Source: a virus
DNA: 64,000 nucleotides
Virus record (IMG/VR): IMGVR_UViG_3300028827_000129
Location: 106,084-170,083 of that record
Direction: 5' to 3' (one strand)
The number at the start of each line of letters is the position of its first letter. The first letter of the stretch is position 1. A program made the position numbers and the translations under genes. Shown here piece by piece: positions 42,459 to 61,006 of the stretch. The notes under the pieces are model-generated. The model ran no database searches and was not told where the DNA came from. It saw only the letters and a program-made list of their open reading frames with translations.

Positions 42459-44348
42459 ATGCCCAAATTACCTTATTTTAATTTATTTGAACTAACAGAC
42501 AAACAATTACTTAACCCAATTGAATTATATCCACCAAGGTCTAAAAATTTAAGACCTTCTGAAGCTTCTATTATTAATAGGGTTACTGGGGAGCCATCAG
42601 GGAAATGCGCTAGGGCTGTTTATTATAGGCTCATGGACGCTCCTATTACAGATCCGCCATTGCCGAAGATGTACTATACTTGGATGATGGGGAAGCTTTT
42701 TGAAGATAGATTAGTAGAAGAGTGGAAAAAGATGGGCTTATATGTAGCTAATTCTGTTAGGTTTTATAATGGAAGATACCATTTGTCCGGCGAATTAGAC
42801 TGCGTGATTAAACATCCAGACATCCCTGATCAACTAATAGGACTAGAAGTAAAAACTGGATATGGTTATAATTATGAAAAGCAAGTAATAGGCACAATTA
42901 ATACAATGGGGCAGCCTAAGATTGAGAACTTATTACAGGCCTCAATATATTTAAATGAATTTAAGCATTCTATTGCTATGTTTAAAATCCCGTGTATGAC
43001 AAGAGATTCTATGAAAAGAGCGGAGTTTGATATAGAATTAATTGATGGAGGCAAGAGGGTAACAGTAAATGGTAAGGTTCAACATGCCTTCTTGATAGAA
43101 GATATTTATAATCGCTTTGATTATATGTGGGAGCATTATGAAAAACAAATTATTCCTCAAAGAGACTACATGCTTAAATGGGATGATGAAACCATAGAAC
43201 GCAAATATGATTCTGGAGATTTATCTGAAAGTGCCTATAAGAAATTTAAAGGCGCTAGGAGGCCAGATACACGTGAAAAGTACCGTCCTGGCGATTGGCA
43301 GTGTTTTGCTCCTAGAACATTAGTGTGGATGTCTAATGGTGAAATGAAGACGATCAAAGACATAAAAGTAGGAGATGAAGTTGTCAGCATTGATGGTCCT
43401 ACAAAAGTAGTTAAAGTAGGGAGTAAGACGACTAATAGTAAAATGGTTACAGTTAAGCCAGCAGGCACACTTGGTGTGGATTGTACTGAAGATCATAAGT
43501 GGTTGATTGGGTCTTGGGACAATTGGGATGAATTTTGTCGCATGGAAACGATTAACCCTAAATTAATGCAGGCAAAGGATATTATTGCTTTTGATGGTAA
43601 AGAAAATATAGACAGGGTAGACGTAGTCTTTATTCCTGTTATTGATTTTTCGTATGAGTCAGATTTAACCATAGAACTATGTGAATTTTTAGGTTATTAT
43701 GCAGCTTTAGGGGACTTAGAAGATCTCAAATATGATAGAGTGACTTTTGTTTTAGACTCTGATAACATGGCCGTTGTAGACAAGATCGTTGAGTTAGGCA
43801 TAAATTTATCAGATAAAAATTCTTGCAACATTGCCTTGACCCATGATGTAGATGGCAAAGAAATTTTGAAAATAATTTTCAGATCTAAAAAATTATTAAA
43901 TTATGTGAGAAAAAATATTATTGGAGACAATAATGAAAATAAAACACTGAGCCACAATATCATGGGCTTGGATCATTGGTCTACAGACGTTTTTTTAAGT
44001 GCTGTTGCTGCTGGACATCAGAATATCGTTAAAGTGGCATCTAAAATTTTAAGCTTACAATATCAACAACTTTTTTGGAAAGTTGATGTCCCAGTTGTAG
44101 TGAAACATATTGACGGCATTGGATATTCGATACAGTTTACTGTTCTTGAAAGTGTAAAATTAGTAAGAGTTTTCAATAAAAAATTTGCAGCATTAAGAAT
44201 AGAAGATGTTATAAGTACAGAAAAGACAGATAAAGTTTACGATATAGAAGTTGATAGTACACATCATGTATTTGCAACAAGTGGAGGATTAGCCAGCAAT
44301 TGCAGTTATTGTCAATATAAAACTTACTGCTGGTCTAGCGACAAATAA
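42459..44348 (+). CDS. Cas4/RecB-like iron-sulfur nuclease, interrupted by an intein
   Basis: This 629-aa precursor starts at ATG 42459 behind GAGAGGTG. The host part carries a PD-(D/E)XK nuclease core: GELDCVI with Asp114, then LEVKTGYG with Glu130 and Lys132. SGKCARAVYYRLM (Cys50) and the C-terminal CSYCQYKTYC (Cys615, Cys618, Cys624) together give the four-cysteine [4Fe-4S] pattern of Cas4 and AddB-type proteins. These process DNA ends during recombination or replication. Residues 282-614 form an intein, leaving about 296 aa after splicing. It is the first gene after a terminator and an extended -10 promoter, upstream of the primase-helicase, so a role in DNA replication or repair is inferred. 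Confidence 0.8.
   Translation: MPKLPYFNLFELTDKQLLNPIELYPPRSKNLRPSEASIINRVTGEPSGKCARAVYYRLMDAPITDPPLPKMYYTWMMGKLFEDRLVEEWKKMGLYVANSVRFYNGRYHLSGELDCVIKHPDIPDQLIGLEVKTGYGYNYEKQVIGTINTMGQPKIENLLQASIYLNEFKHSIAMFKIPCMTRDSMKRAEFDIELIDGGKRVTVNGKVQHAFLIEDIYNRFDYMWEHYEKQIIPQRDYMLKWDDETIERKYDSGDLSESAYKKFKGARRPDTREKYRPGDWQCFAPRTLVWMSNGEMKTIKDIKVGDEVVSIDGPTKVVKVGSKTTNSKMVTVKPAGTLGVDCTEDHKWLIGSWDNWDEFCRMETINPKLMQAKDIIAFDGKENIDRVDVVFIPVIDFSYESDLTIELCEFLGYYAALGDLEDLKYDRVTFVLDSDNMAVVDKIVELGINLSDKNSCNIALTHDVDGKEILKIIFRSKKLLNYVRKNIIGDNNENKTLSHNIMGLDHWSTDVFLSAVAAGHQNIVKVASKILSLQYQQLFWKVDVPVVVKHIDGIGYSIQFTVLESVKLVRVFNKKFAALRIEDVISTEKTDKVYDIEVDSTHHVFATSGGLASNCSYCQYKTYCWSSDK
43302..44300 (+). mobile_element. Intein with eroded LAGLIDADG endonuclease domain
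   Basis: The intein runs from Cys282 to Asn614 of the nuclease precursor (333 aa). Its N-terminal block has CFAPRTLVWMSNG followed by IKVGDEVVSIDG. Block B has CTEDHKW with the conserved T-x-x-H. The end has VYDIEVDSTHHVFATSG and finishes SN before Cys615, the +1 nucleophile. The residue before the terminal Asn is Ser rather than the usual His. The middle (residues about 385-585) resembles a LAGLIDADG endonuclease: ELCEFLGYYAALGD and a second motif near VFLSAVAAG. The positions normally holding the catalytic acidic residue are Leu and Ala. Splicing is likely retained; homing activity probably is not. Confidence 0.85.
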
Positions 44349-44350
44349 TA

Positions 44351-44380
44351 TTGTTTTTGCCTTGTATTTTATGGTATAAT
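44351..44380 (+). promoter_or_regulatory. Promoter for the primase-helicase gene
   Basis: TTGTTT (44351-44356) and TATAAT (44375-44380) are 18 bases apart, with TG at 44372-44373 making an extended -10. A start site near 44387 leaves about 20 bases of leader before the GAGGTG site and ATG 44408. It lies in the gap between the nuclease and the primase-helicase genes. Confidence 0.75.
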
Positions 44381-44407
44381 ATTATCAAAAATAAAACGAG
44401 GTGTGAT

Positions 44408-46858
44408 ATGCGTTTTAATAATCTTGATACTGTAATTGCAGAGTTGAGGCCGTTTTTAAAGAATTATTTAGAAGAGCATAATATTGATACAACAAAAAAG
44501 TTTAACTGCCTTAATCCAAAGCATGAAGACGCGGACCCGTCTATGTCATTTATTCCTGACTCGAATGGCGAGGCATGCTTATGTTTTGGGTGTGGTGTTA
44601 CGGTGGACATATTTAAAGCTGCCCATTTTCTAGAGCATAAACCAATGCAAGGAAAAGGTTTTATTTATGATAATGTAATTTATTTAGCAGAAAAGTATGG
44701 CATCAAAGTAATGATGACAGAGCCTACAGATGAAGAAATTTATGAGATGTCTATTTATAGGGCATATTATGAAGCTGCAGAATATATTGCTCATACTAAG
44801 TATACAGATCTGGGATCCCGTGAGATCGCCTCTCGCGGCTGGACAGAGGATTTCTGTCGCTCCCACTATATAGGGACTGTACCAAGCTTTAAGGCCTTCA
44901 GAGAGGCTCTGAAGGCCTCTGGCTTTAAACCTTCGTTTATTGACGACATAGATCTTGGACGTGAAGATATTTTTAACGAGAATAATTTGATTTTCACAAT
45001 TTTTGACGACTTGGGGAGGCCTGTGGCTTTCGCAGCGAGGAATTTAAAATATGATGGCGTAAATGGGTTAAAATATATTAATTCTTCTGGTAAAAGAGGC
45101 GATGGCGGCCATGCCGCTACTTTATCAGGCAAATGCAATATTTACAGAAAAGGTGAAATTTTATATGGATTTAATTTAATAAAAAATCAAGGTGGTCCAT
45201 TGTATATTTTTGAAGGCTATGCAGATTGGGCCACTGCAAAATCATCTGGGGTGAATAATTGTGTAGCAGTCGGTGGAACGGCCTTTACTGAAAAGCATAT
45301 AGAGTTGTTGCAGCAATATAATCGTCGTGATATTGTTTTTGTATTTGATGCAGATAAGGGCGGCAAAGAAAGTATTTTAAGAATCTTAGATAAGGTTTTA
45401 GTTGGCTATAAAGATATTAAAGTGCATATTATTGCTTTGCCAGATGGCTATGACCCAGATGAATTTATTAGAGAACATGGTATAGAAAATTTTTACGCCT
45501 TAAAGATAAAGACTGCTTTTCAATGGCGTTTAGACCAATATACAGATATTGATGATCCTATTGACATTTGTAATACAATGGTCCCGATTATAGCTGCAGA
45601 ACCTTCAGCTGTTATGCGGGATCAAATGGTAAAAGAGTTAGCGCAATTTACGGGCATTAAAGAAAAGAATATTGATCGCGACGTAGAAAGAATTGTCAAT
45701 GCTAAAGAAAAGGAAGTTGAGAGGCGTAAAGAGGAAATTATTGATAGGACAATAAGGGAGATAAGATTTTCTGGTGGAGACGCCGCATCGATGTTATATT
45801 CTGCTGCAGAGCAGATTAAAGATATAGAGGTCGCTAACAATGAAGATTCTTATTCTAAGGAATCTTTTTTAGATCGCCTTGACAATATTAAAATTACTCA
45901 AGAAACAAAATCTTCTTGGGACGACTGTTTTGTTCTTGGAAAACAATTTAAAGAATTTGAAAATAAGATGAAAGGTGAATGGAAAAAGGACGTTTTGATA
46001 TTAGTTGGCGGGAGTCCGAATAGCGGCAAAACAACATTTTTGTCTAATTTATCATTAGATATAGCCATGAATAATGATGACGCGCTGGTAATTTTTCACA
46101 CTATCGATGACACAATGGAACAATTTGTCCCCCGCTTAGTTACTGCTTTATATGGTGAACCAGATAGCGGCCTAACGATAAATAAAGTAAAGAATCCGAA
46201 TTTGTATGATGATGTGGATGAGATCAAGGACAAGCGTGAAATAGGCTATAGACGATTAAAGGCTTTAGTAGAGCAAAATAAGTATGTTGTTAAAGATGCC
46301 AATGACGGTACTGGTTTTGCTTACATTGAATCATTGATTAAATATTACATTGATCGCTATCCAGATAAACAAATAGTTTACTTTTTAGATAATTTGCATA
46401 AAATTTATGGATTCGACAACAGTAAAGAAGAAAGAGTTAAGTGGCGGACTATTTCACAGAACATGAAGCGTCTTGCTACTAAATATCATATACCAGTTTT
46501 ATGTTCTATTGAGTATCGGAAGCTACAGCATGGAGCTAGGCCTTCTAATAATGATATTTTGGAATCTGTTCAATTTGAATATGATGCCAATTTGATTTTA
46601 CATTTATATAATGAATTGCATTCTTTACGAACAGATTCTGTTTTATACACACTGAGCGAAACGACAAGAAATCAAATTCCTATTGTTGAAGTCATTTTCG
46701 GCAAAAATAAGATTACAGATTTTAAAGATAGCTTATATTTTAATTTTTATACTGACCAAAATATATATGAACGGGTTGATAGAGATTTTGTATTTAGTTT
46801 AAAACGCAGTGTTGATAGCGATCAACAAAAAGGATGGCGTACAGGAGGCTATGCATAA
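44408..46858 (+). CDS. Bifunctional DNA primase-helicase (T7 gp4-like architecture)
   Basis: This 816-aa protein starts at ATG 44408, four bases after GAGGTG and downstream of a promoter; an in-frame TTG at 44351 lies inside the promoter and is rejected. Domains in order: a zinc-binding primase finger (Cys34, His39, Cys57/Cys59, Cys62); a primase core with TOPRIM motifs FEGYAD (Glu269) and FDADKGG (Asp314, Asp316); and a RecA-like helicase with Walker A GGSPNSGKTT (about 534-543) and Walker B VYFLDNL (Asp661). It primes lagging-strand synthesis and unwinds the fork. At 816 aa it is longer than T7 gp4, with a linker of about 150 aa. It may be the main replicative primase-helicase. Confidence 0.85.
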   Translation: MRFNNLDTVIAELRPFLKNYLEEHNIDTTKKFNCLNPKHEDADPSMSFIPDSNGEACLCFGCGVTVDIFKAAHFLEHKPMQGKGFIYDNVIYLAEKYGIKVMMTEPTDEEIYEMSIYRAYYEAAEYIAHTKYTDLGSREIASRGWTEDFCRSHYIGTVPSFKAFREALKASGFKPSFIDDIDLGREDIFNENNLIFTIFDDLGRPVAFAARNLKYDGVNGLKYINSSGKRGDGGHAATLSGKCNIYRKGEILYGFNLIKNQGGPLYIFEGYADWATAKSSGVNNCVAVGGTAFTEKHIELLQQYNRRDIVFVFDADKGGKESILRILDKVLVGYKDIKVHIIALPDGYDPDEFIREHGIENFYALKIKTAFQWRLDQYTDIDDPIDICNTMVPIIAAEPSAVMRDQMVKELAQFTGIKEKNIDRDVERIVNAKEKEVERRKEEIIDRTIREIRFSGGDAASMLYSAAEQIKDIEVANNEDSYSKESFLDRLDNIKITQETKSSWDDCFVLGKQFKEFENKMKGEWKKDVLILVGGSPNSGKTTFLSNLSLDIAMNNDDALVIFHTIDDTMEQFVPRLVTALYGEPDSGLTINKVKNPNLYDDVDEIKDKREIGYRRLKALVEQNKYVVKDANDGTGFAYIESLIKYYIDRYPDKQIVYFLDNLHKIYGFDNSKEERVKWRTISQNMKRLATKYHIPVLCSIEYRKLQHGARPSNNDILESVQFEYDANLILHLYNELHSLRTDSVLYTLSETTRNQIPIVEVIFGKNKITDFKDSLYFNFYTDQNIYERVDRDFVFSLKRSVDSDQQKGWRTGGYA
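44812..44918 (+). repeat. Cluster of palindromes inside the primase-helicase gene
   Basis: Four structured elements lie in 107 bases: GGGATCCC (44812-44819); an 8-bp stem with one G-U pair (44818-44825 with 44831-44838); GACAGA with TCTGTC (44842-44847 with 44853-44858); and a perfect 12-bp stem with a 3-base loop (44892-44903 with 44907-44918). The first two are mutually exclusive by two bases. They may act as RNA structure or as a DNA origin signal. No iterated direct repeats were seen. Confidence 0.6.
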
Positions 46859-47569
46859 ATGAGGCTTACAATACAGGACCTAAAGGATTATACATTTTGC
46901 CCGCATTATTTTAAGTTCAACAATGGTCAATACTTCTATTCTATAGGAGTTGATAAGCATTATTATGAAAGTCTTGTGCGGACAGTTAAACAAATTTATG
47001 CTAGACAACTAGAGACAGAAAGAAAGGTCAGGTGGGATGAAGTTACAAATAAATGGAATAAATTCTTTTGGCAATCTAAAGACCCATCAAGTAAAGAACA
47101 TAGAGTTCAAAGTAATAATGGCTTTTTATGCCTTAAGGATTATTATGATAAATACTTAGAAAGAAAAGAGTATGTTTTGGCCGTTAATTGCCCTTACCAT
47201 CATTGGGCCGGGGACCATGTTGTTAGTGATTCAATCCCTGTGCTGTTGGCATCAGAAGATGAAGTTGTGTGTTTGTTGTTTGATCAGGATATAAATACTC
47301 AGATGCCGTTATACAGAAGCATAGAGGTACAAATGATTTCTGTTGTTCTTAAGGATCTTTTCCCCGACAAGAAGCTAAAGATAGTCAATAATTTTTACGG
47401 TAAAGGCCCAATGAAATTTACAGAATCTTATGTATATCCTACAGATGATTTTGTGGCTCAAAGTAAAATAATGGTCGATATAGTTATAAGAAATGTTGGT
47501 GCCGGCCTTACCTTTTCTAATATTTATGGCTGTAAATTTTGCCCAAGAAACAATATTTGTTTTGAATAA
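46859..47569 (+). CDS. Cas4-like iron-sulfur protein with eroded nuclease core
   Basis: This 236-aa protein starts at ATG 46859 immediately after the primase-helicase stop, using GGAGG in its end. LTIQDLKDYTFCPHYFKF (Cys14) and the C-terminal CKFCPRNNIC (Cys225, Cys228, Cys234) give the [4Fe-4S] arrangement of RecB/Cas4 proteins. Asp124 in VSDSIPVLL could be the first nuclease Asp. Where D/E-x-Lys is expected, the sequence reads LLFDQD, without lysine. So the iron-sulfur fold is probably retained while cleavage activity is doubtful. It may be a structural or DNA-binding partner of the active Cas4-like protein encoded upstream. That pairing is inferred. Confidence 0.65.
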   Translation: MRLTIQDLKDYTFCPHYFKFNNGQYFYSIGVDKHYYESLVRTVKQIYARQLETERKVRWDEVTNKWNKFFWQSKDPSSKEHRVQSNNGFLCLKDYYDKYLERKEYVLAVNCPYHHWAGDHVVSDSIPVLLASEDEVVCLLFDQDINTQMPLYRSIEVQMISVVLKDLFPDKKLKIVNNFYGKGPMKFTESYVYPTDDFVAQSKIMVDIVIRNVGAGLTFSNIYGCKFCPRNNICFE

Positions 47570-48133: not shown

Positions 48134-48392
48134 TTCTTCTGTTTATCCATTGCAAAGTGACCAGTCTGTGTATCACTTGGCGACATTAGTTGATGGAGTT
48201 AGGGAATATGTAGCGTTTTTGCTGGATAATAAAGTATACATTGAAGAGATAACTGGAGGTAATTTAAAATATATCGACGATGATGATATCGCAAAGGAAG
48301 CAGAGGAGCTTTTATTAGATGCCGGCATATTGCATCCTATGAATATAGCTGCTAAAATAAAGAGATGGGAAGATACACAGAGGAAGAATTAG
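48120..48392 (+). CDS. Small hypothetical protein in the replication block
   Basis: This 90-aa protein starts at ATG 48120 inside the end of the zinc-ribbon gene; GAAGGAAA just upstream is the ribosome site. An in-frame ATG far upstream at 47955 would make a basic extension that is only the shadow of the zinc-ribbon gene, so it is rejected. The sequence has YHLATLVDGVREYVAFLLDNKVYIEEITG and an acidic patch DDDDIAKEAEEL, like a small mixed alpha/beta protein. It overlaps the next gene by 28 bases. Function is unknown; it may be a small regulator or DNA-binding accessory. Confidence 0.5.
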   Translation: MKIIDSSVYPLQSDQSVYHLATLVDGVREYVAFLLDNKVYIEEITGGNLKYIDDDDIAKEAEELLLDAGILHPMNIAAKIKRWEDTQRKN

Positions 48393-49030
48393 AAAAGATT
48401 AAACTTTATTTATCTAGCGGAGATTTTACTTATAGTGACATTGCTTCGTTACTTGGGAGGTCAACAGCTGGGATAAGGGCGTTATGTAGTAAGAAAGGTT
48501 GGACCGGCCTTGCAAAGCGTTTAGATTCAAAAGGCAATGTATCTTTGTATAATATTTTAAAAAAGATATTGCCATTTACAAGAATCGAAAAAGAATATCA
48601 TATAGGGGAGAGGTTGAGACTTGATATATATATCCCGGATTATAAGATTGGTTGGGAAGTACAAGGCATCCAGCATTATAAATCAATACAATATTTTCAC
48701 AAAGACGAAGATGCGTTTGATAAGCAAATTGCAAGAGATAGAAGAAAAAATCAATTATGTAAAAAACAAGGGATAATTTTAGTAAATATAGAACCTTCAG
48801 ACATAACATATGATAATATTAAAAATATATTAAACGGAATATTGGAGGAGTACAGTGAAGATTGTTTGGAAGAAAGTGTTCGAGAGAATAGGATTGACGA
48901 TAAGTCTTCAAGCAATTGGAAAGATATTGCGAAGGCTAACAGGAAGAAGTACATGAGAGGCTTTTATGAAAAAGCAAGGGAATATAGAAAAGAACAATAT
49001 AGAAAGTGGAAGCATTCAAGAAATAAATAG
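48365..49030 (+). CDS. HTH plus PD-(D/E)XK endonuclease-like protein
   Basis: This is a 221-aa protein. Residues about 22-46 (TYSDIASLLGRSTAGIRAL) form a helix-turn-helix. A nuclease core follows: GERLRLDIYIPDYKIGWEVQGIQHYK, written here in parts as RLDIYIP (Asp87) and WEVQG (Glu98, Gln100), then a DRRKNQL helix and GIILVNIEPSD. Gln replaces the usual Lys of D/E-x-K, a variation known in Vsr-, DUF559- and some homing-type nucleases. Its start and end overlap the neighbouring genes, so it belongs to the operon rather than being a recent insertion. It could act as a mismatch-type endonuclease or a site-specific nuclease. The C-terminal 40 residues are basic. Confidence 0.65.
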   Translation: MGRYTEEELEKIKLYLSSGDFTYSDIASLLGRSTAGIRALCSKKGWTGLAKRLDSKGNVSLYNILKKILPFTRIEKEYHIGERLRLDIYIPDYKIGWEVQGIQHYKSIQYFHKDEDAFDKQIARDRRKNQLCKKQGIILVNIEPSDITYDNIKNILNGILEEYSEDCLEESVRENRIDDKSSSNWKDIAKANRKKYMRGFYEKAREYRKEQYRKWKHSRNK

Positions 49031-54124: not shown

Positions 54125-57100
54125 ATGGCTAAAAATATAGTACCAGCAATAAGTAATGTCCTCATTAACTTTGATGGCACATCTGTATCTTTTTCTGAAA
54201 ATGGATTGCGATTTGACTTAGAAGGTAGTGCCTGTGGGCTTTTGGACCAAGATCTAAGTGGTACTTATCCTGACAATCCTGCTTTTGCAACAACTTGTAA
54301 ATTATCAACTGGTATTGGTTGTGATGGAAAATGGGCATACCTTGAGAAAGATCTTTCTATATTAACCGTTAAACCATCTGTCATAAAATTAACATATGCA
54401 TCCCCGGAAATTGTTGGTTCTACACCAACGGATTACGGAGATTATGGTGGCACTGGGTTTATAATTAGCAATGGAAGTATGCAAATTTTTATTAAATTTA
54501 TAAACAATTCGAATGCTCCAATCCAGTATATGAAAAATAATGGTACCTGGGGAGTTATTACAGATGATAATAATATGTCAACTTGGTGGAATAATCGCCA
54601 GTTAGACCAGTATTGGGAATTTGATCTTTCAGCTTCTAGTGGCCCATACGCCGGGATTGTTGGATGTATAATTGATGGTGTACAACGTATCGCTAGCCCA
54701 ATAGCAGATTCATTATGCCCCGCTACTATTCCTGCAGGTATTAGAGTTTTTGCTGACAGAGGTACAAATGCAACAGTTTACACTACAGCAAGTATTGGCA
54801 AATTAATATTAAGTGCTCCTGGGGCATCATATACATATTGCGATGGCATAGCTGGACAAGCAAATGATTTTACGCAGAGTGGCAATGGTACTGTTACTGA
54901 CGATGTCCAAGAAGAAAATAGGACATGTTTAAAATTAGATAGCGGGGCTGTCGGAGACAGTATAGAAATTTCTAGACAAATAGCTGGAACATTCCGTGGG
55001 ATTTCTGATTTTTGGACACGCATAGAAGCTAAAATGCTTGTAGGTGCGTTTAATGATGGAGATACTTTAGAGGTTACATTATCTAATGGTTTAGCAGAGT
55101 TTAGTATTGAATTTGCTACAGATGGTATTTACGCCCTTAAGTCAGATCGTACTAAGCTGAAAGTATATGATTCTCCACCAGTGTCTTCTTTTAATGACTG
55201 GTATATACATTGGTGCCCAGGAGAGTTATCTGCGGATGGATGTGGTATACGCGGGATATATTTAGGGGATAAAAAAATAGTTTCAGGTATAGCATCTTCT
55301 GTAGCAGGACGTAACGAAAGTGATTGGATATATACGCCTGAAGTAGACTATGATGGGACTATATCTCTTGCAGCTGCTGGTTGGACAGAAGGAGGTACAG
55401 CAACAGCAGTTACTAGAACTCCAAATGTTTCATTTGATGGTACAAATTGTCTTAAATATTCTATTAGTCCATCTAATACTGGTTATATTTTAGATAAAAT
55501 TTTACCAGCCAATAGGGCAGTTAACCAAAAAAGAATCAAGTGGGAAGCCAGATACCAGTTTGTTAACCATTCCTTCACATCTGCTGATCGTTGTGCTTTG
55601 CAGTGGAATAATGGTGCTTATTGGCATACAATAATGGACAATAGGCGTACTCTTAGTCCAGCCTGGAGGTATGCAGACGATTATGCTGACGGAGGATATG
55701 GGCAGTGGAGATTTTACGACGGTAAAAAGAGTTATTTTTTTGAACTCCCTGGGTCTATCACTACCTTGAATATTGGATGGATTCATGAATCTGTCATATT
55801 TGACAATGAAAATAAATTTATATTATCTTACAGTATAAATGGATATGAATATTTAAAAGGTCCGCTCCCTTATGACAGCCCTCCTGTAGACAATACTAAT
55901 ACATTACGTACATTATTTTACGGCGATTCAGGTAGTGGCTATGATCTTTATATTGATTTCATAAAATTATCGTATGGGAATACAGCCCCTTCAGGATATG
56001 GAACAGCTCTATCTGATGGGTTTGTAAAAATAACATTAAAAGGTAATACTGCAAATAGGCAAGTATTTTTTGATAAACTTTATTTTGGCCGTGACGGTAA
56101 CCTTTTTTTGCCAACGCCTGCAATATATACTGAAGAAAACGATACATCTTACTTTGACGTTTTATCACAAGGTAGGATGGAATGTGACGCTCAAGATCCG
56201 GCATGGACCGAATTATATAAAATTGGTAACCCAACTTTTTCAGTAGACGCGGATCCAGATGATCGTACTTATGTAGAAGAATATAGCGTCTACGGAGATT
56301 ATAGATCATATGTAGGTCAAAAAGTTTTAAGAGTAGACTTATGGAATAATGACTATCCATTATTTTATATAGATGGTCATTTTAGTGATTTATCGGAAAG
56401 AAATATTACAGACGGGTCTGCTGTTTTAGGCGGCTATACGGTCCCATATCTTGTAGCTGCCAAGGAAACTGGCACGGACTTTCCTTTTGATGAAAATGAA
56501 GGCTATTGGATTAATACTGACACAGCCTGCACTCTCCTATTATCTAATTTTAAATTCGACCAAGGGTCTCCAACAAACTATTTAACGGTAACAGATGGTG
56601 TTGAACTAGATGCCACTTGGGATTCTTCTGGTTCGTATGGTGTTTATACCAAAACAGACAACGATACTTTGTCTGCTGACAATTCTACTGGATGGTGTCA
56701 TTTTGTTGTTGGAGATAATGGAACAACAGATTCAAAAATTAATTATGACAAAACTTTTGGGGACTTATCAACTGCTACATATGTAAGAATACGTACAACT
56801 ATACATTTAATAAGCCTTGGTGATATTTATGCCGGTGATTTCTTTGTCACATGTGGCAATGGTAACTTTGTGTTCTATTTATGGTTAATAGATCCTGGTA
56901 CTGGTCCAGAAGTTGGCTTCTACGACAATAGTGTCGGATATAAAAAAGTAGCAAGTTTAAGTTACAATAAAACATATACTTTAGAATTTATCATTGATGC
57001 ACAAAGTGGCTCTGAGGAAGTACTAGAATTTTGGATGGATGAACATGATGGCAATTCGTTGCAGCTAAAAGCTTACAACTTAGGGACACCTCGTCTTGCT

Positions 57101-60100
57101 ACATTCATGGATGATAGAGTTTTAGTTGTAGCTAAATCGGGCACTGGTGTTACGACAAACGAACTGTACTTCAAAGACTTAGTTATTGATCAAATAACAA
57201 CAGCTTTGGCATCCAATTCTAAAGGAATATTACGTAAAAATATTGGTCAAATTTCTACATCTGCAGATAGAATATATTTTGATATTATTTTTAGAATGAA
57301 AGGCTACGGTAATGCCTTATTAATACCGATAGCGTTTAGTGCTACACATGGTGTATTATTGCAATTTACTGAAGCTAATGGCGGCACACTTTATTACACA
57401 AATAGTGCTGGTAGTACAGTAGAATTAGCATCTAATCTTGGGTTTGATACAAGTCCACATAGAATTAGAGGCAGCTTAGACCCTACTGCTATCTCGGGTG
57501 GAGCAGGTATTACATATCTTATTATTGACGAAGATGAAAATAAAGAGTTCTCATCTATATCCGATTCTGTGGATACAACATATGGAGCCTATGGTGCAGA
57601 GGGTGATGTCCAGATTAGAATGCAAGCTTGGAATGTAACTCCATGTCATTGTGAGATTTTACAGTTTGCATTTGATGATAAGCCATATAGAGAACTGGCC
57701 ATAAAACGTAATATTGGTACTTTTTCAGACAAAGGTCTTTTAAATTACATTCATTCTATTAGACACAGACCTAATTATGGTAGTGGTCTAACAAAATTGA
57801 TCTTCTCTAATGGCGCAACTAATACTGAACTTGTCATGACATCAGCTTATCATCCTCCAATTTCTAGAGCAGAAAAGTATAATGAATCTTCAACTTACTA
57901 TTTAGATAATGAAGGCGTGAGGCATCCTGTTGCTTCTTTGCAGTCTGGTGGATATTCTCGTCATGGGCTTGGTATATTTGATTTATCATGTCATACGCCT
58001 GAAGGTCCTGGCATAGTGGGGTTTTATGGGCACCCTGCTATAGCACCAGATGATTTTTTCTTATACAAAACTTCTCGGAGAATTAATTACGAAGGTTTTG
58101 AGGACGGCGATGTTGTTCTAATCTTTAGGGCATATTTAGGATATCCGACTTCGCCTTACCATCAAACATATTTTGACTTTTTGCGCCTTGGTGAGACCTT
58201 ATCAAGTTCTTTGACTCTAGAAAATAAAATGGACTTATTAGGTGGCTATGACTATAGCCAAACCATGTTAGCTACAGACGAAATTATTAATGTAAAAATT
58301 GATTTAGGTTTCACAATAGAAGGATCTTCTTCTATTGAATTAGACTCTCCTGACTATTTGATGTATACTGGGTTAGATCCAAATGAAGATATAGGATATA
58401 CTTTTCAATCATCTGTTTTACAAACGCCGTATTATAGTGTTGCATTTTGTCCTAATGCAGCTGATAATCAAAATATACGTTTTGGGCTATTTTTCTATAA
58501 TGATATAAATAATCCATGGATTACTGATGCTCAATTTGGATGGGCGGCTAAAGGATATCATATTAGTGTTGATGGGAATCCTGATGGAGGAGGTATTGGT
58601 GGTAGTTTGTTTAAGCCAGCTGGTACCGACTTACCATATCATAAACCACTTTTCAAATATCCTCCGCCATTTAATAAAGATTATGTTGATACTTTAGGGG
58701 TAATTTCTGCGAATGCTTCTACTAATGATAAATTTTTATCAGGCGTCAGTTCTTATTTTGTTAATAATGATAACTGGATAAGTGGAATGGGAGCAAGTCC
58801 TAATTATGGTCTTATGCCTGCTGTATCATTTAATGGCAAAATTTATGTTGGATCATACTGGGGGTTTTCCAATGTAAGCATAGGCACAAGATATACTGTA
58901 GATTCTTATTATGTAGTAGGTAGTCTGACATATGCCGGACCTATTCCGTTTCAGATCACTTCCAATGTAGAATCGCCACCATCTGAATATAATACAAGAC
59001 TTTATTATTTAGATCCTGATGATCCAAATAAATTAATGCGTCAAAGAAGAGGGCGTTTTAGGATTGCTGAGGCTTTTGCCACTGAAGAAGTCTTATCTTT
59101 AAGATTATACGATATTTACCAATGGAAAGCGGCTGTTACCCTTGAAGATATTCCTTATATCTTGTATCGAGATGTTTATAATGCTAAGTTAATGTTATCG
59201 AAGAATTTAGAGTCTATTGTGATATGTGATACTCCAACTCAATATTTTACTATTGTAGCAGATAGGACAAGAGCTGCTGCGTTATATATCTTTTATGTTG
59301 ACAATAGCGATGGACATTTAAAGTATAAAACTTATAGGGCAAAAGCTTTTGAGCCTATTAACGAAAAATACCTATCGAATGCTACTATTTTGAAGAAAAA
59401 CATAGATATAGCTGGCAATTCTTTACAAGCACCAATGTCTGTTAATACTGGTGAAATTATTCTGTCATACATAACATCTACTGGCGAAGCAAGAGCATTG
59501 CCATTTACTTTTAAGATGACAAAGCATTTGTCTGACCCAGAATCTTGGCTATGCTGGACTGCTGGTGGCGTTGAGTGGGAACCATTTTGGAATGGTTTTA
59601 TTGCAGAAAATTATTTTAATTCACGTAAGGTCATGATTGGTCATAATGAAAGAAGGACTCCAGAAGTTGTTTCTGTGCCAAAGCAAGGAGAGCCAGTAGA
59701 AGACAATAGTTTTATTTTACCATATGGTCCTTATTTCGATTCGCATAACAAAGCTTCTGGCACATTATCTAGTGACAAATATATATATGTTGCAGCAGGT
59801 GGCAGAGAACTTGCTGGTGTTATAGAATATGGATATAGCGAGAATGTTAAAGAAAATGTTTTTGCATATCGTTCTGCATATCCCATAAATGATCCCAACT
59901 TTGACGTTACAAATTTTATTGATATCACTGGTAACTTAAATAATGTACACCAGTTTTTAGTTGGGAGAGGCTATAAAGCCTTGCATCCAACCCACGATAA
60001 TGCCATAGCTATGTTTTTTGCATACTCTTATCACTATGGAGTTACGGAATATATTCCTGGCCAAGGATGGAAAACAGGACAAGAATTACTAAGCACAGAA

Positions 60101-61006
60101 TATTCTGAGGGCGATGCTATAGGAGACAATAGTAGAGGTAATGCTGGTAATATTTACCTCTTAGATATAAAGCCATATAACAATAATGGGACATTAGAGT
60201 TTCATGTTTTTTGGACGTGCAGGAGATTTGTTCAAAGCCAAGACGAAAATGGAGTATGGGTTTATGATGTTGAATTAGGACGTTCACATGCTGAAATTCT
60301 TTATACAAAATTAATACCTAATGGAGATGGCACATATAACGCTTATAAATCAGATGATACTCCTCAATCACTGACTGTTTATGCTCCTGATGCTGAAGTT
60401 GTATGGAGATCTCCAGGATTTCCTTATAACACTGACTGTATCCCTAGGGCATATGGTTATGCAACTATTATGGACAATGGCAAGCCAGCTGTTGCAGTAT
60501 GGCAACAGAAGTTTGCAGAAGCGGCAAGTAGTACTGCTAGATGGGTAAGTAATGATTCTGTATTTTATTACTTAGATGACAACGGTGTATGGCAAGAAAG
60601 AATTATTAATACTAATCTTTTTGAACTTACTGGATTAGCATACAACCCAGAAACAAAAGGGATGATAGTAGTAGGCACCAGAGAAGAAAACGGTTGGTTA
60701 ATTCCTGTTTTCCAAAAATCAACAGATAATGGGGTTACTTGGTCTAGTATGCAGGCCGCTCCTATTAATTATTATGATGATGAAGGAAATAGAATGCATG
60801 TAACAGACTTTAGAGTTGCTGGTTGGTATGGTAAATATTTTAATGTTGTATGGACTTTAAATTATAATAAACCAATTCAGAGCTCTTCAAGTATTGGTGA
60901 AGTACACCACGGATATATGTACTTTGATGATCTTGGTGTAAAAATTATTAATTTAAAAACAACATGGAGGCATACATTTAGACATGTTGCTAGAGGTAAG
61001 AGTTAA
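54125..61006 (+). CDS. Giant adhesin / tail spike-like protein
   Basis: This 2293-aa protein starts at ATG 54125 without a visible Shine-Dalgarno sequence, so it may rely on coupling to the gene before. The first about 1300 residues contain several lectin- or laminin-G-like sandwiches (for example VIFDNENKFILSYSINGYEY, LYIDFIKLSYG and YTLEFIIDAQSG). The last about 650 residues resemble a sialidase-type beta-propeller, with an Asp-box STDNGVTW at residues 2199-2206. There is no clear catalytic site, so binding rather than cleavage of surface sugars is the safer inference. Its size and lack of repeats suggest a single long host-recognition molecule. Confidence 0.6.
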   Translation: MAKNIVPAISNVLINFDGTSVSFSENGLRFDLEGSACGLLDQDLSGTYPDNPAFATTCKLSTGIGCDGKWAYLEKDLSILTVKPSVIKLTYASPEIVGSTPTDYGDYGGTGFIISNGSMQIFIKFINNSNAPIQYMKNNGTWGVITDDNNMSTWWNNRQLDQYWEFDLSASSGPYAGIVGCIIDGVQRIASPIADSLCPATIPAGIRVFADRGTNATVYTTASIGKLILSAPGASYTYCDGIAGQANDFTQSGNGTVTDDVQEENRTCLKLDSGAVGDSIEISRQIAGTFRGISDFWTRIEAKMLVGAFNDGDTLEVTLSNGLAEFSIEFATDGIYALKSDRTKLKVYDSPPVSSFNDWYIHWCPGELSADGCGIRGIYLGDKKIVSGIASSVAGRNESDWIYTPEVDYDGTISLAAAGWTEGGTATAVTRTPNVSFDGTNCLKYSISPSNTGYILDKILPANRAVNQKRIKWEARYQFVNHSFTSADRCALQWNNGAYWHTIMDNRRTLSPAWRYADDYADGGYGQWRFYDGKKSYFFELPGSITTLNIGWIHESVIFDNENKFILSYSINGYEYLKGPLPYDSPPVDNTNTLRTLFYGDSGSGYDLYIDFIKLSYGNTAPSGYGTALSDGFVKITLKGNTANRQVFFDKLYFGRDGNLFLPTPAIYTEENDTSYFDVLSQGRMECDAQDPAWTELYKIGNPTFSVDADPDDRTYVEEYSVYGDYRSYVGQKVLRVDLWNNDYPLFYIDGHFSDLSERNITDGSAVLGGYTVPYLVAAKETGTDFPFDENEGYWINTDTACTLLLSNFKFDQGSPTNYLTVTDGVELDATWDSSGSYGVYTKTDNDTLSADNSTGWCHFVVGDNGTTDSKINYDKTFGDLSTATYVRIRTTIHLISLGDIYAGDFFVTCGNGNFVFYLWLIDPGTGPEVGFYDNSVGYKKVASLSYNKTYTLEFIIDAQSGSEEVLEFWMDEHDGNSLQLKAYNLGTPRLATFMDDRVLVVAKSGTGVTTNELYFKDLVIDQITTALASNSKGILRKNIGQISTSADRIYFDIIFRMKGYGNALLIPIAFSATHGVLLQFTEANGGTLYYTNSAGSTVELASNLGFDTSPHRIRGSLDPTAISGGAGITYLIIDEDENKEFSSISDSVDTTYGAYGAEGDVQIRMQAWNVTPCHCEILQFAFDDKPYRELAIKRNIGTFSDKGLLNYIHSIRHRPNYGSGLTKLIFSNGATNTELVMTSAYHPPISRAEKYNESSTYYLDNEGVRHPVASLQSGGYSRHGLGIFDLSCHTPEGPGIVGFYGHPAIAPDDFFLYKTSRRINYEGFEDGDVVLIFRAYLGYPTSPYHQTYFDFLRLGETLSSSLTLENKMDLLGGYDYSQTMLATDEIINVKIDLGFTIEGSSSIELDSPDYLMYTGLDPNEDIGYTFQSSVLQTPYYSVAFCPNAADNQNIRFGLFFYNDINNPWITDAQFGWAAKGYHISVDGNPDGGGIGGSLFKPAGTDLPYHKPLFKYPPPFNKDYVDTLGVISANASTNDKFLSGVSSYFVNNDNWISGMGASPNYGLMPAVSFNGKIYVGSYWGFSNVSIGTRYTVDSYYVVGSLTYAGPIPFQITSNVESPPSEYNTRLYYLDPDDPNKLMRQRRGRFRIAEAFATEEVLSLRLYDIYQWKAAVTLEDIPYILYRDVYNAKLMLSKNLESIVICDTPTQYFTIVADRTRAAALYIFYVDNSDGHLKYKTYRAKAFEPINEKYLSNATILKKNIDIAGNSLQAPMSVNTGEIILSYITSTGEARALPFTFKMTKHLSDPESWLCWTAGGVEWEPFWNGFIAENYFNSRKVMIGHNERRTPEVVSVPKQGEPVEDNSFILPYGPYFDSHNKASGTLSSDKYIYVAAGGRELAGVIEYGYSENVKENVFAYRSAYPINDPNFDVTNFIDITGNLNNVHQFLVGRGYKALHPTHDNAIAMFFAYSYHYGVTEYIPGQGWKTGQELLSTEYSEGDAIGDNSRGNAGNIYLLDIKPYNNNGTLEFHVFWTCRRFVQSQDENGVWVYDVELGRSHAEILYTKLIPNGDGTYNAYKSDDTPQSLTVYAPDAEVVWRSPGFPYNTDCIPRAYGYATIMDNGKPAVAVWQQKFAEAASSTARWVSNDSVFYYLDDNGVWQERIINTNLFELTGLAYNPETKGMIVVGTREENGWLIPVFQKSTDNGVTWSSMQAAPINYYDDEGNRMHVTDFRVAGWYGKYFNVVWTLNYNKPIQSSSSIGEVHHGYMYFDDLGVKIINLKTTWRHTFRHVARGKS

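Follow-up and report, generated by a model that had tools for sequence, protein, structure and literature searches.

The window analyzed here, a 64,000-nucleotide stretch, is part of a 170-kb IMG/VR virus record. Within it we find a 629-amino-acid open reading frame (ORF) that encodes a Cas4-like PD-(D/E)XK nuclease split by an intein, followed directly by a primase-helicase gene. The nuclease motifs all lie in the N-extein, while the C-extein is a tail of 15 amino acids with three cysteines (Table 1).

Table 1. Positions in the window of the nuclease precursor gene, its intein, its predicted metal ligands, and the adjoining gene
Feature	Position	Strand	Basis
Precursor ORF, 629 aa, Cas4-like PD-(D/E)XK nuclease split by intein	42459..44348	+	
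N-extein, residues 1-281, with Cys50 and all nuclease motifs (D114, E130-x-K132, Q160-xxx-Y164)	42459..43301	+	
Cys50 codon, predicted N-terminal cluster ligand	42606..42608	+	100% conserved in alignment
Class-1 intein, Cys282-Asn614, 333 aa	43302..44300	+	TIGR01445 and TIGR01443 above cut-off, homologue junction
Block B TxxH (T343-E-D-H346)	43485..43496	+	sequence
LAGLIDADG-like helix 1, residues 408-420 (CEFLGYYAALGDL), degenerate	43680..43718	+	sequence reading
LAGLIDADG-like stretch 2, residues 511-520 (VFLSAVAAGH), without acidic residue	43989..44018	+	sequence reading
Block F Asp595 (F:4), then His602/His603	44241..44243 (Asp595)	+	
Block G Ser613-Asn614, penultimate Ser in place of His, terminal Asn	44295..44300	+	
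Cys615, nucleophile at +1, first of the three C-terminal Cys, counterpart of SSO0001 Cys188	44301..44303	+	
C-extein CSYCQYKTYCWSSDK, 15 aa and stop, with Cys615, Cys618, and Cys624	44301..44348	+	
Primase-helicase gene adjoining the nuclease gene	44351..46858	+	

Both ends of the intein are recognized by NCBIfam models. The intein_Nterm model (TIGR01445) scores 25.5 bits against a cut-off of 24.5, with a match starting at residue 282, and intein_Cterm (TIGR01443) scores 18.9 bits against a cut-off of 15.6, with a match ending at residue 615. The residues expected of a class-1 intein are in place: Cys282 at position 1, the TxxH of block B, the Asp and His of block F, and a terminal Asn614 followed by Cys615 at +1. 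The penultimate His, which is common but not obligatory in class-1 inteins, is absent, and Ser613 is found instead. A penultimate Ser can slow the C-terminal splicing steps. Mja KlbA, a class-2 intein that splices, naturally has Ser at G:6 (PMC4031507). In the middle of the intein, two LAGLIDADG-like helices can be made out by eye, the second of which reads AAGH and lacks an acidic residue; no Pfam LAGLIDADG family matched the intein at E ≤ 1. Together these two observations suggest that the homing endonuclease has decayed and that homing has probably been lost. The predicted structure of the precursor is of low confidence in the intein (mean pLDDT, 54.7) and was set aside.

The junction itself was located with intein-free homologues, which carry an uninterrupted GDWQ-C-x-Y-C...C; Acinetobacter phage ME3, the first distant homologue, reads GDYQ-CRYC without a break. 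A first family scan returned 45 loci, but its pattern included D[WY]QC[SR]YC, which makes the CxxC conservation among them circular. A second scan, seeded from N-extein motifs only, identified 27 distinct homologues. The N-terminal Cys is found in 27/27, as is the complete C-terminal Cys triad, with two additional residues between the first C-terminal Cys pair in two of them, and not one of the 27 contains an intein. These intein-free homologues with their Cys triad confirm the junction. The bounds of the intein given in the preliminary description, with Asn614 directly before Cys615, are thereby correct to the residue by both the end models and the homologues, and the alignment leaves the junction where it had been placed. 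The aligner puts the shared Cys at position 282 because the first residue of the intein is also Cys; by the splicing mechanism, the residue left in the product is Cys615. An N-extein alignment of 21 sequences was too divergent for use as a scan query, and scans for relatives with single proteins recovered the same virus only. A second IMG/VR contig carries an identical copy (100% identity over 10,843 bp) and so represents the same virus, not an independent occurrence. An intein at the nuclease Cys triad was thus found in one virus only.

The host protein belongs with the Cas4-like nucleases. Its spliced sequence matches PHROG 1990 (Cas4-domain exonuclease; 2.6e-13) and PHROG 1706, and joining the exteins lifts the PHROG 1706 score from 30.4 to 37.1 bits, with a match that then reaches residue 295. 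The RecB motifs D, ExK, and QxxxY are present, and D114, E130, K132, Q160, and Y164 are conserved at 98-100% in a 41-sequence alignment. Because the score against TIGR00372, the CRISPR Cas4 equivalog model, falls far below the cut-off (17.4 bits versus 65) and that against Pfam PDDEXK_1 is also below cut-off, we describe the protein as Cas4-like and not as a CRISPR Cas4 equivalog. An AlphaFold model of L006, an intein-free homologue that is 39% identical, has a pLDDT of 92.7; in Foldseek it retrieves SSO0001, ACE1, Cas4, and EXO5, with modest TM-scores of about 0.4-0.6 to Cas4 structures. In 51 homologous loci (about 10 of which are the same contig twice), the nuclease gene has a primase-helicase homologue nearby, which suggests a role for the nuclease in replication or recombination.

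To assign the cysteines, we compared the family with SSO0001 (4IC1), which shares the nuclease motifs and the four-Cys signature of the Cas4 family and, like that family, has no intein. The family profile matches this protein with an E value of 1.6e-7 and aligns NWECKYCIFSVIC with DWQCSYC-x5-C; the 4IC1 chain is numbered four higher than SSO0001 in the alignment, an offset that we took as a tag. The ligands of the SSO0001 [4Fe-4S] cluster are Cys32, Cys188, Cys191, and Cys197 (PMC4176176), and Cys615 therefore corresponds to Cys188. The earlier proposal of two roles for Cys615, as +1 nucleophile and as predicted cluster ligand, is upheld by this homology. The dual chemical role of Cys615 is accordingly well supported by homology, with splicing and metal binding themselves predicted from sequence.

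Which metal the four cysteines hold is less certain, with Fe-S likeliest and zinc possible. DUF3799 (3L0A), a related RecB-like nuclease, uses the same arrangement of four Cys to bind zinc (PMC3466216), and Cas4 clusters differ ([2Fe-2S] or [4Fe-4S]) with no sequence signature to tell them apart (PMC5704561). Both observations would fit a zinc or purely structural site, with the +1 Cys as ligand of a metal and not of an Fe-S cluster. We regard such a site as rather unlikely, given that the closest solved relative by profile, SSO0001, is a [4Fe-4S] protein.

In all likelihood, the locus holds a splicing intein at an Fe-S/zinc Cys triad, and the overlap of roles reflects site preference and not an evolved redox switch. 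On this explanation, the host would be a phage Cas4-like "iron-staple" nuclease, and a class-1 cis-splicing intein would immediately precede the Cys that opens its C-terminal CxxC...C triad. Splicing would begin at Cys282, Cys615 would accept the N-extein by transesterification, and Asn614 would cyclise. The ligated product, of 296 aa, would regain GDWQ-CSYC-...-C, and Cys615 would join Cys50, Cys618, and Cys624 in holding an Fe-S cluster (or zinc). That Cys615 serves twice would follow from insertion at the most conserved site of the gene together with the need for Cys, Ser, or Thr at +1. That need is established for class-1 inteins, which also favor conserved motifs (PMC4031507, PMC5050341). 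Consistent with this, 24-nt windows across the insertion point rank 1 of 865 for nucleotide conservation in the gene. Seven Cys, Ser, or Thr positions are at least 90% conserved, four of them the cluster cysteines, and the nuclease family has four invariant Cys, all predicted ligands. With every invariant Cys a predicted ligand and no stretch of the gene more conserved than the insertion point, the overlap is to be expected. The insertion site is new; the biology is otherwise ordinary.

The preliminary description had gone further, suggesting that nuclease activity might depend on redox state or metal supply. We find this idea unsupported. Cys-to-Ala mutants of the Cas4 proteins Pcal_0546 and SSO1391 lose the cluster and keep wild-type nuclease activity, and those of SSO0001 lose both (PMC4176176); cluster-free mutants are thus active in two of three enzymes, and a relative, as noted above, holds zinc. 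That the cluster cannot be completed before splicing is plausible. The remaining C-terminal ligands, at +4 and +10, lie after the junction. The precursor itself may have nuclease activity, because the N-extein contains every catalytic motif. A metal bound by the precursor and blocking splicing is conceivable, in that the Cys615 thiol would be free before step 2 and the intein fold would bring the junctions close.

Regulated splicing has a precedent in the Pyrococcus abyssi MoaA intein, where step 1 is blocked once oxidation has linked Cys(-3) to Cys1 by a disulfide (PMC10663303, PMC3922620). Like the nuclease intein, it is a class-1 intein with Cys chemistry at the junction of an oxygen-sensitive Fe-S enzyme, and its +1 residue may itself be a ligand. 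The trap in MoaA works through Cys(-3), however, whereas the -3 residue of the nuclease precursor is Asp279, which excludes a MoaA-type trap here. An evolved switch would have to act differently, with metal or oxidation at Cys615/Cys618 blocking step 2 so that active nuclease forms only when redox state or iron supply permits. The CxxC right after the junction might bind metal or close into a disulfide, zinc- or disulfide-inhibited inteins are documented (PMC10663303, PMC3922620), and the penultimate Ser may slow splicing enough for tuning (penultimate variation is discussed in PMC5050341). Yet we consider such a switch improbable: besides Asp279 and the active cluster-free mutants, the single occurrence means that conservation of the arrangement cannot be shown, and an intein landing on a conserved Cys codon is enough to account for the overlap. 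If there is a disulfide or metal effect, the prediction is that it would tie up Cys+1 (as Cys+1/Cys+4) and stall step 2, with N-terminal cleavage as a side reaction. A reversible block of transesterification, caused by metal bound to the C-extein CxxC or by its oxidation, would make the release of an active nuclease linked to replication depend on iron, zinc, or redox conditions. Such coupling appears to us very improbable; if true, it would be a step-2 gate, distinct from the step-1 disulfide trap of MoaA. Least probable is that the intein no longer splices and the precursor is a final product that works as a nuclease unspliced, for while the penultimate Ser, the apparent decay of the endonuclease, and the position of the nuclease motifs upstream of the intein would all suit this idea, the frame is intact, all nucleophiles and block B/F residues are retained, the KlbA intein splices with a penultimate Ser (PMC4031507), and the C-extein triad is intact although it would then be free to decay.

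The preferred explanation, a splicing intein placed at a metal-ligand Cys by site preference, has a parallel in another enzyme family. The CxxxCxxC motif of radical-SAM enzymes binds [4Fe-4S]. Among 395 genomes sampled from the actinobacterial class and reached through a GroES scan, 23 contain full members of NCBIfam NF038136, which describes intein-containing Rv2578c-type radical-SAM proteins; intein-containing members were found at the class level only, with none in the sampled Mycobacterium genus or its family. Direct reading of seven radical-SAM loci places the intein after CxxxCxY and before the third Cys of the motif, with HN/CFAR at its end (slashes mark junctions); intein-free relatives read GCSHACRYCFAR. 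As in the nuclease, the intein directly precedes a Cys of a [4Fe-4S] motif (GCSHAC-x-Y/C ... HN/CFAR). Unlike in the nuclease, the host is a radical-SAM protein, two other ligands including Cys(-3) are on the N-extein side, and the penultimate residue is His. With the other ligands before the junction in the radical-SAM proteins and mostly after it in the nuclease, redox or metal should affect different splicing steps. The Rv2578c-type inteins (L178-L185) share Cys(-3) with MoaA and lend themselves to tests of redox-trapped splicing.

The nuclease is the third unrelated host, after MoaA and the Rv2578c-type radical-SAM proteins, with an intein at an Fe-S Cys motif. The three hosts suggest that inteins land repeatedly at Fe-S ligand cysteines, as these are invariant, have low-degeneracy codons, and already supply the Cys required for splicing.

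It also provides a second, different insertion site among phage Cas4-like nucleases. The Cas4/RecB-like exonuclease of mycobacteriophages (Bixzunavirus) likewise contains an intein (PMC5050341), which differs from ours in site and +1 residue, being at the catalytic ExK motif (PVELK ... HN/TQNSRS) with Thr at +1. Phage Cas4-like nucleases with an intein are therefore known already, as is a +1 Cys that is an Fe-S ligand; what is new is their combination at the present site. Many of the Bixzunavirus Cas4-family exonucleases annotated as "HNH endonuclease" (L186:1801-3564) are split by an intein at ExK, and those of Alice, Flabslab, and others are without an intein. Mycobacteriophage Alice gp247 (L052:1940-3724), an intein match, does not read as a Cas4-like protein; it has another class-1-like intein (Cys1, SN/C) in a host that is von Willebrand A-like by eye.

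Several other genes in the window are worth recording. The 236-amino-acid ORF that follows the primase-helicase gene (46859-47569) has FCPHYF near its N terminus and ends CKFCPRNNICFE, a Cas4-like Cys spacing; it gave no significant profile match and could be an iron-staple nuclease that has degenerated. A free-standing HNH/homing-endonuclease-like gene (PHROGs 559 and 9084) lies at 48365-49030, downstream of the intein gene by about 4 kb. Further on, a 2,293-amino-acid ORF (54125-61006), with no PHROG match and a weak cadherin-like Pfam match only, probably encodes a structural or adhesion protein.
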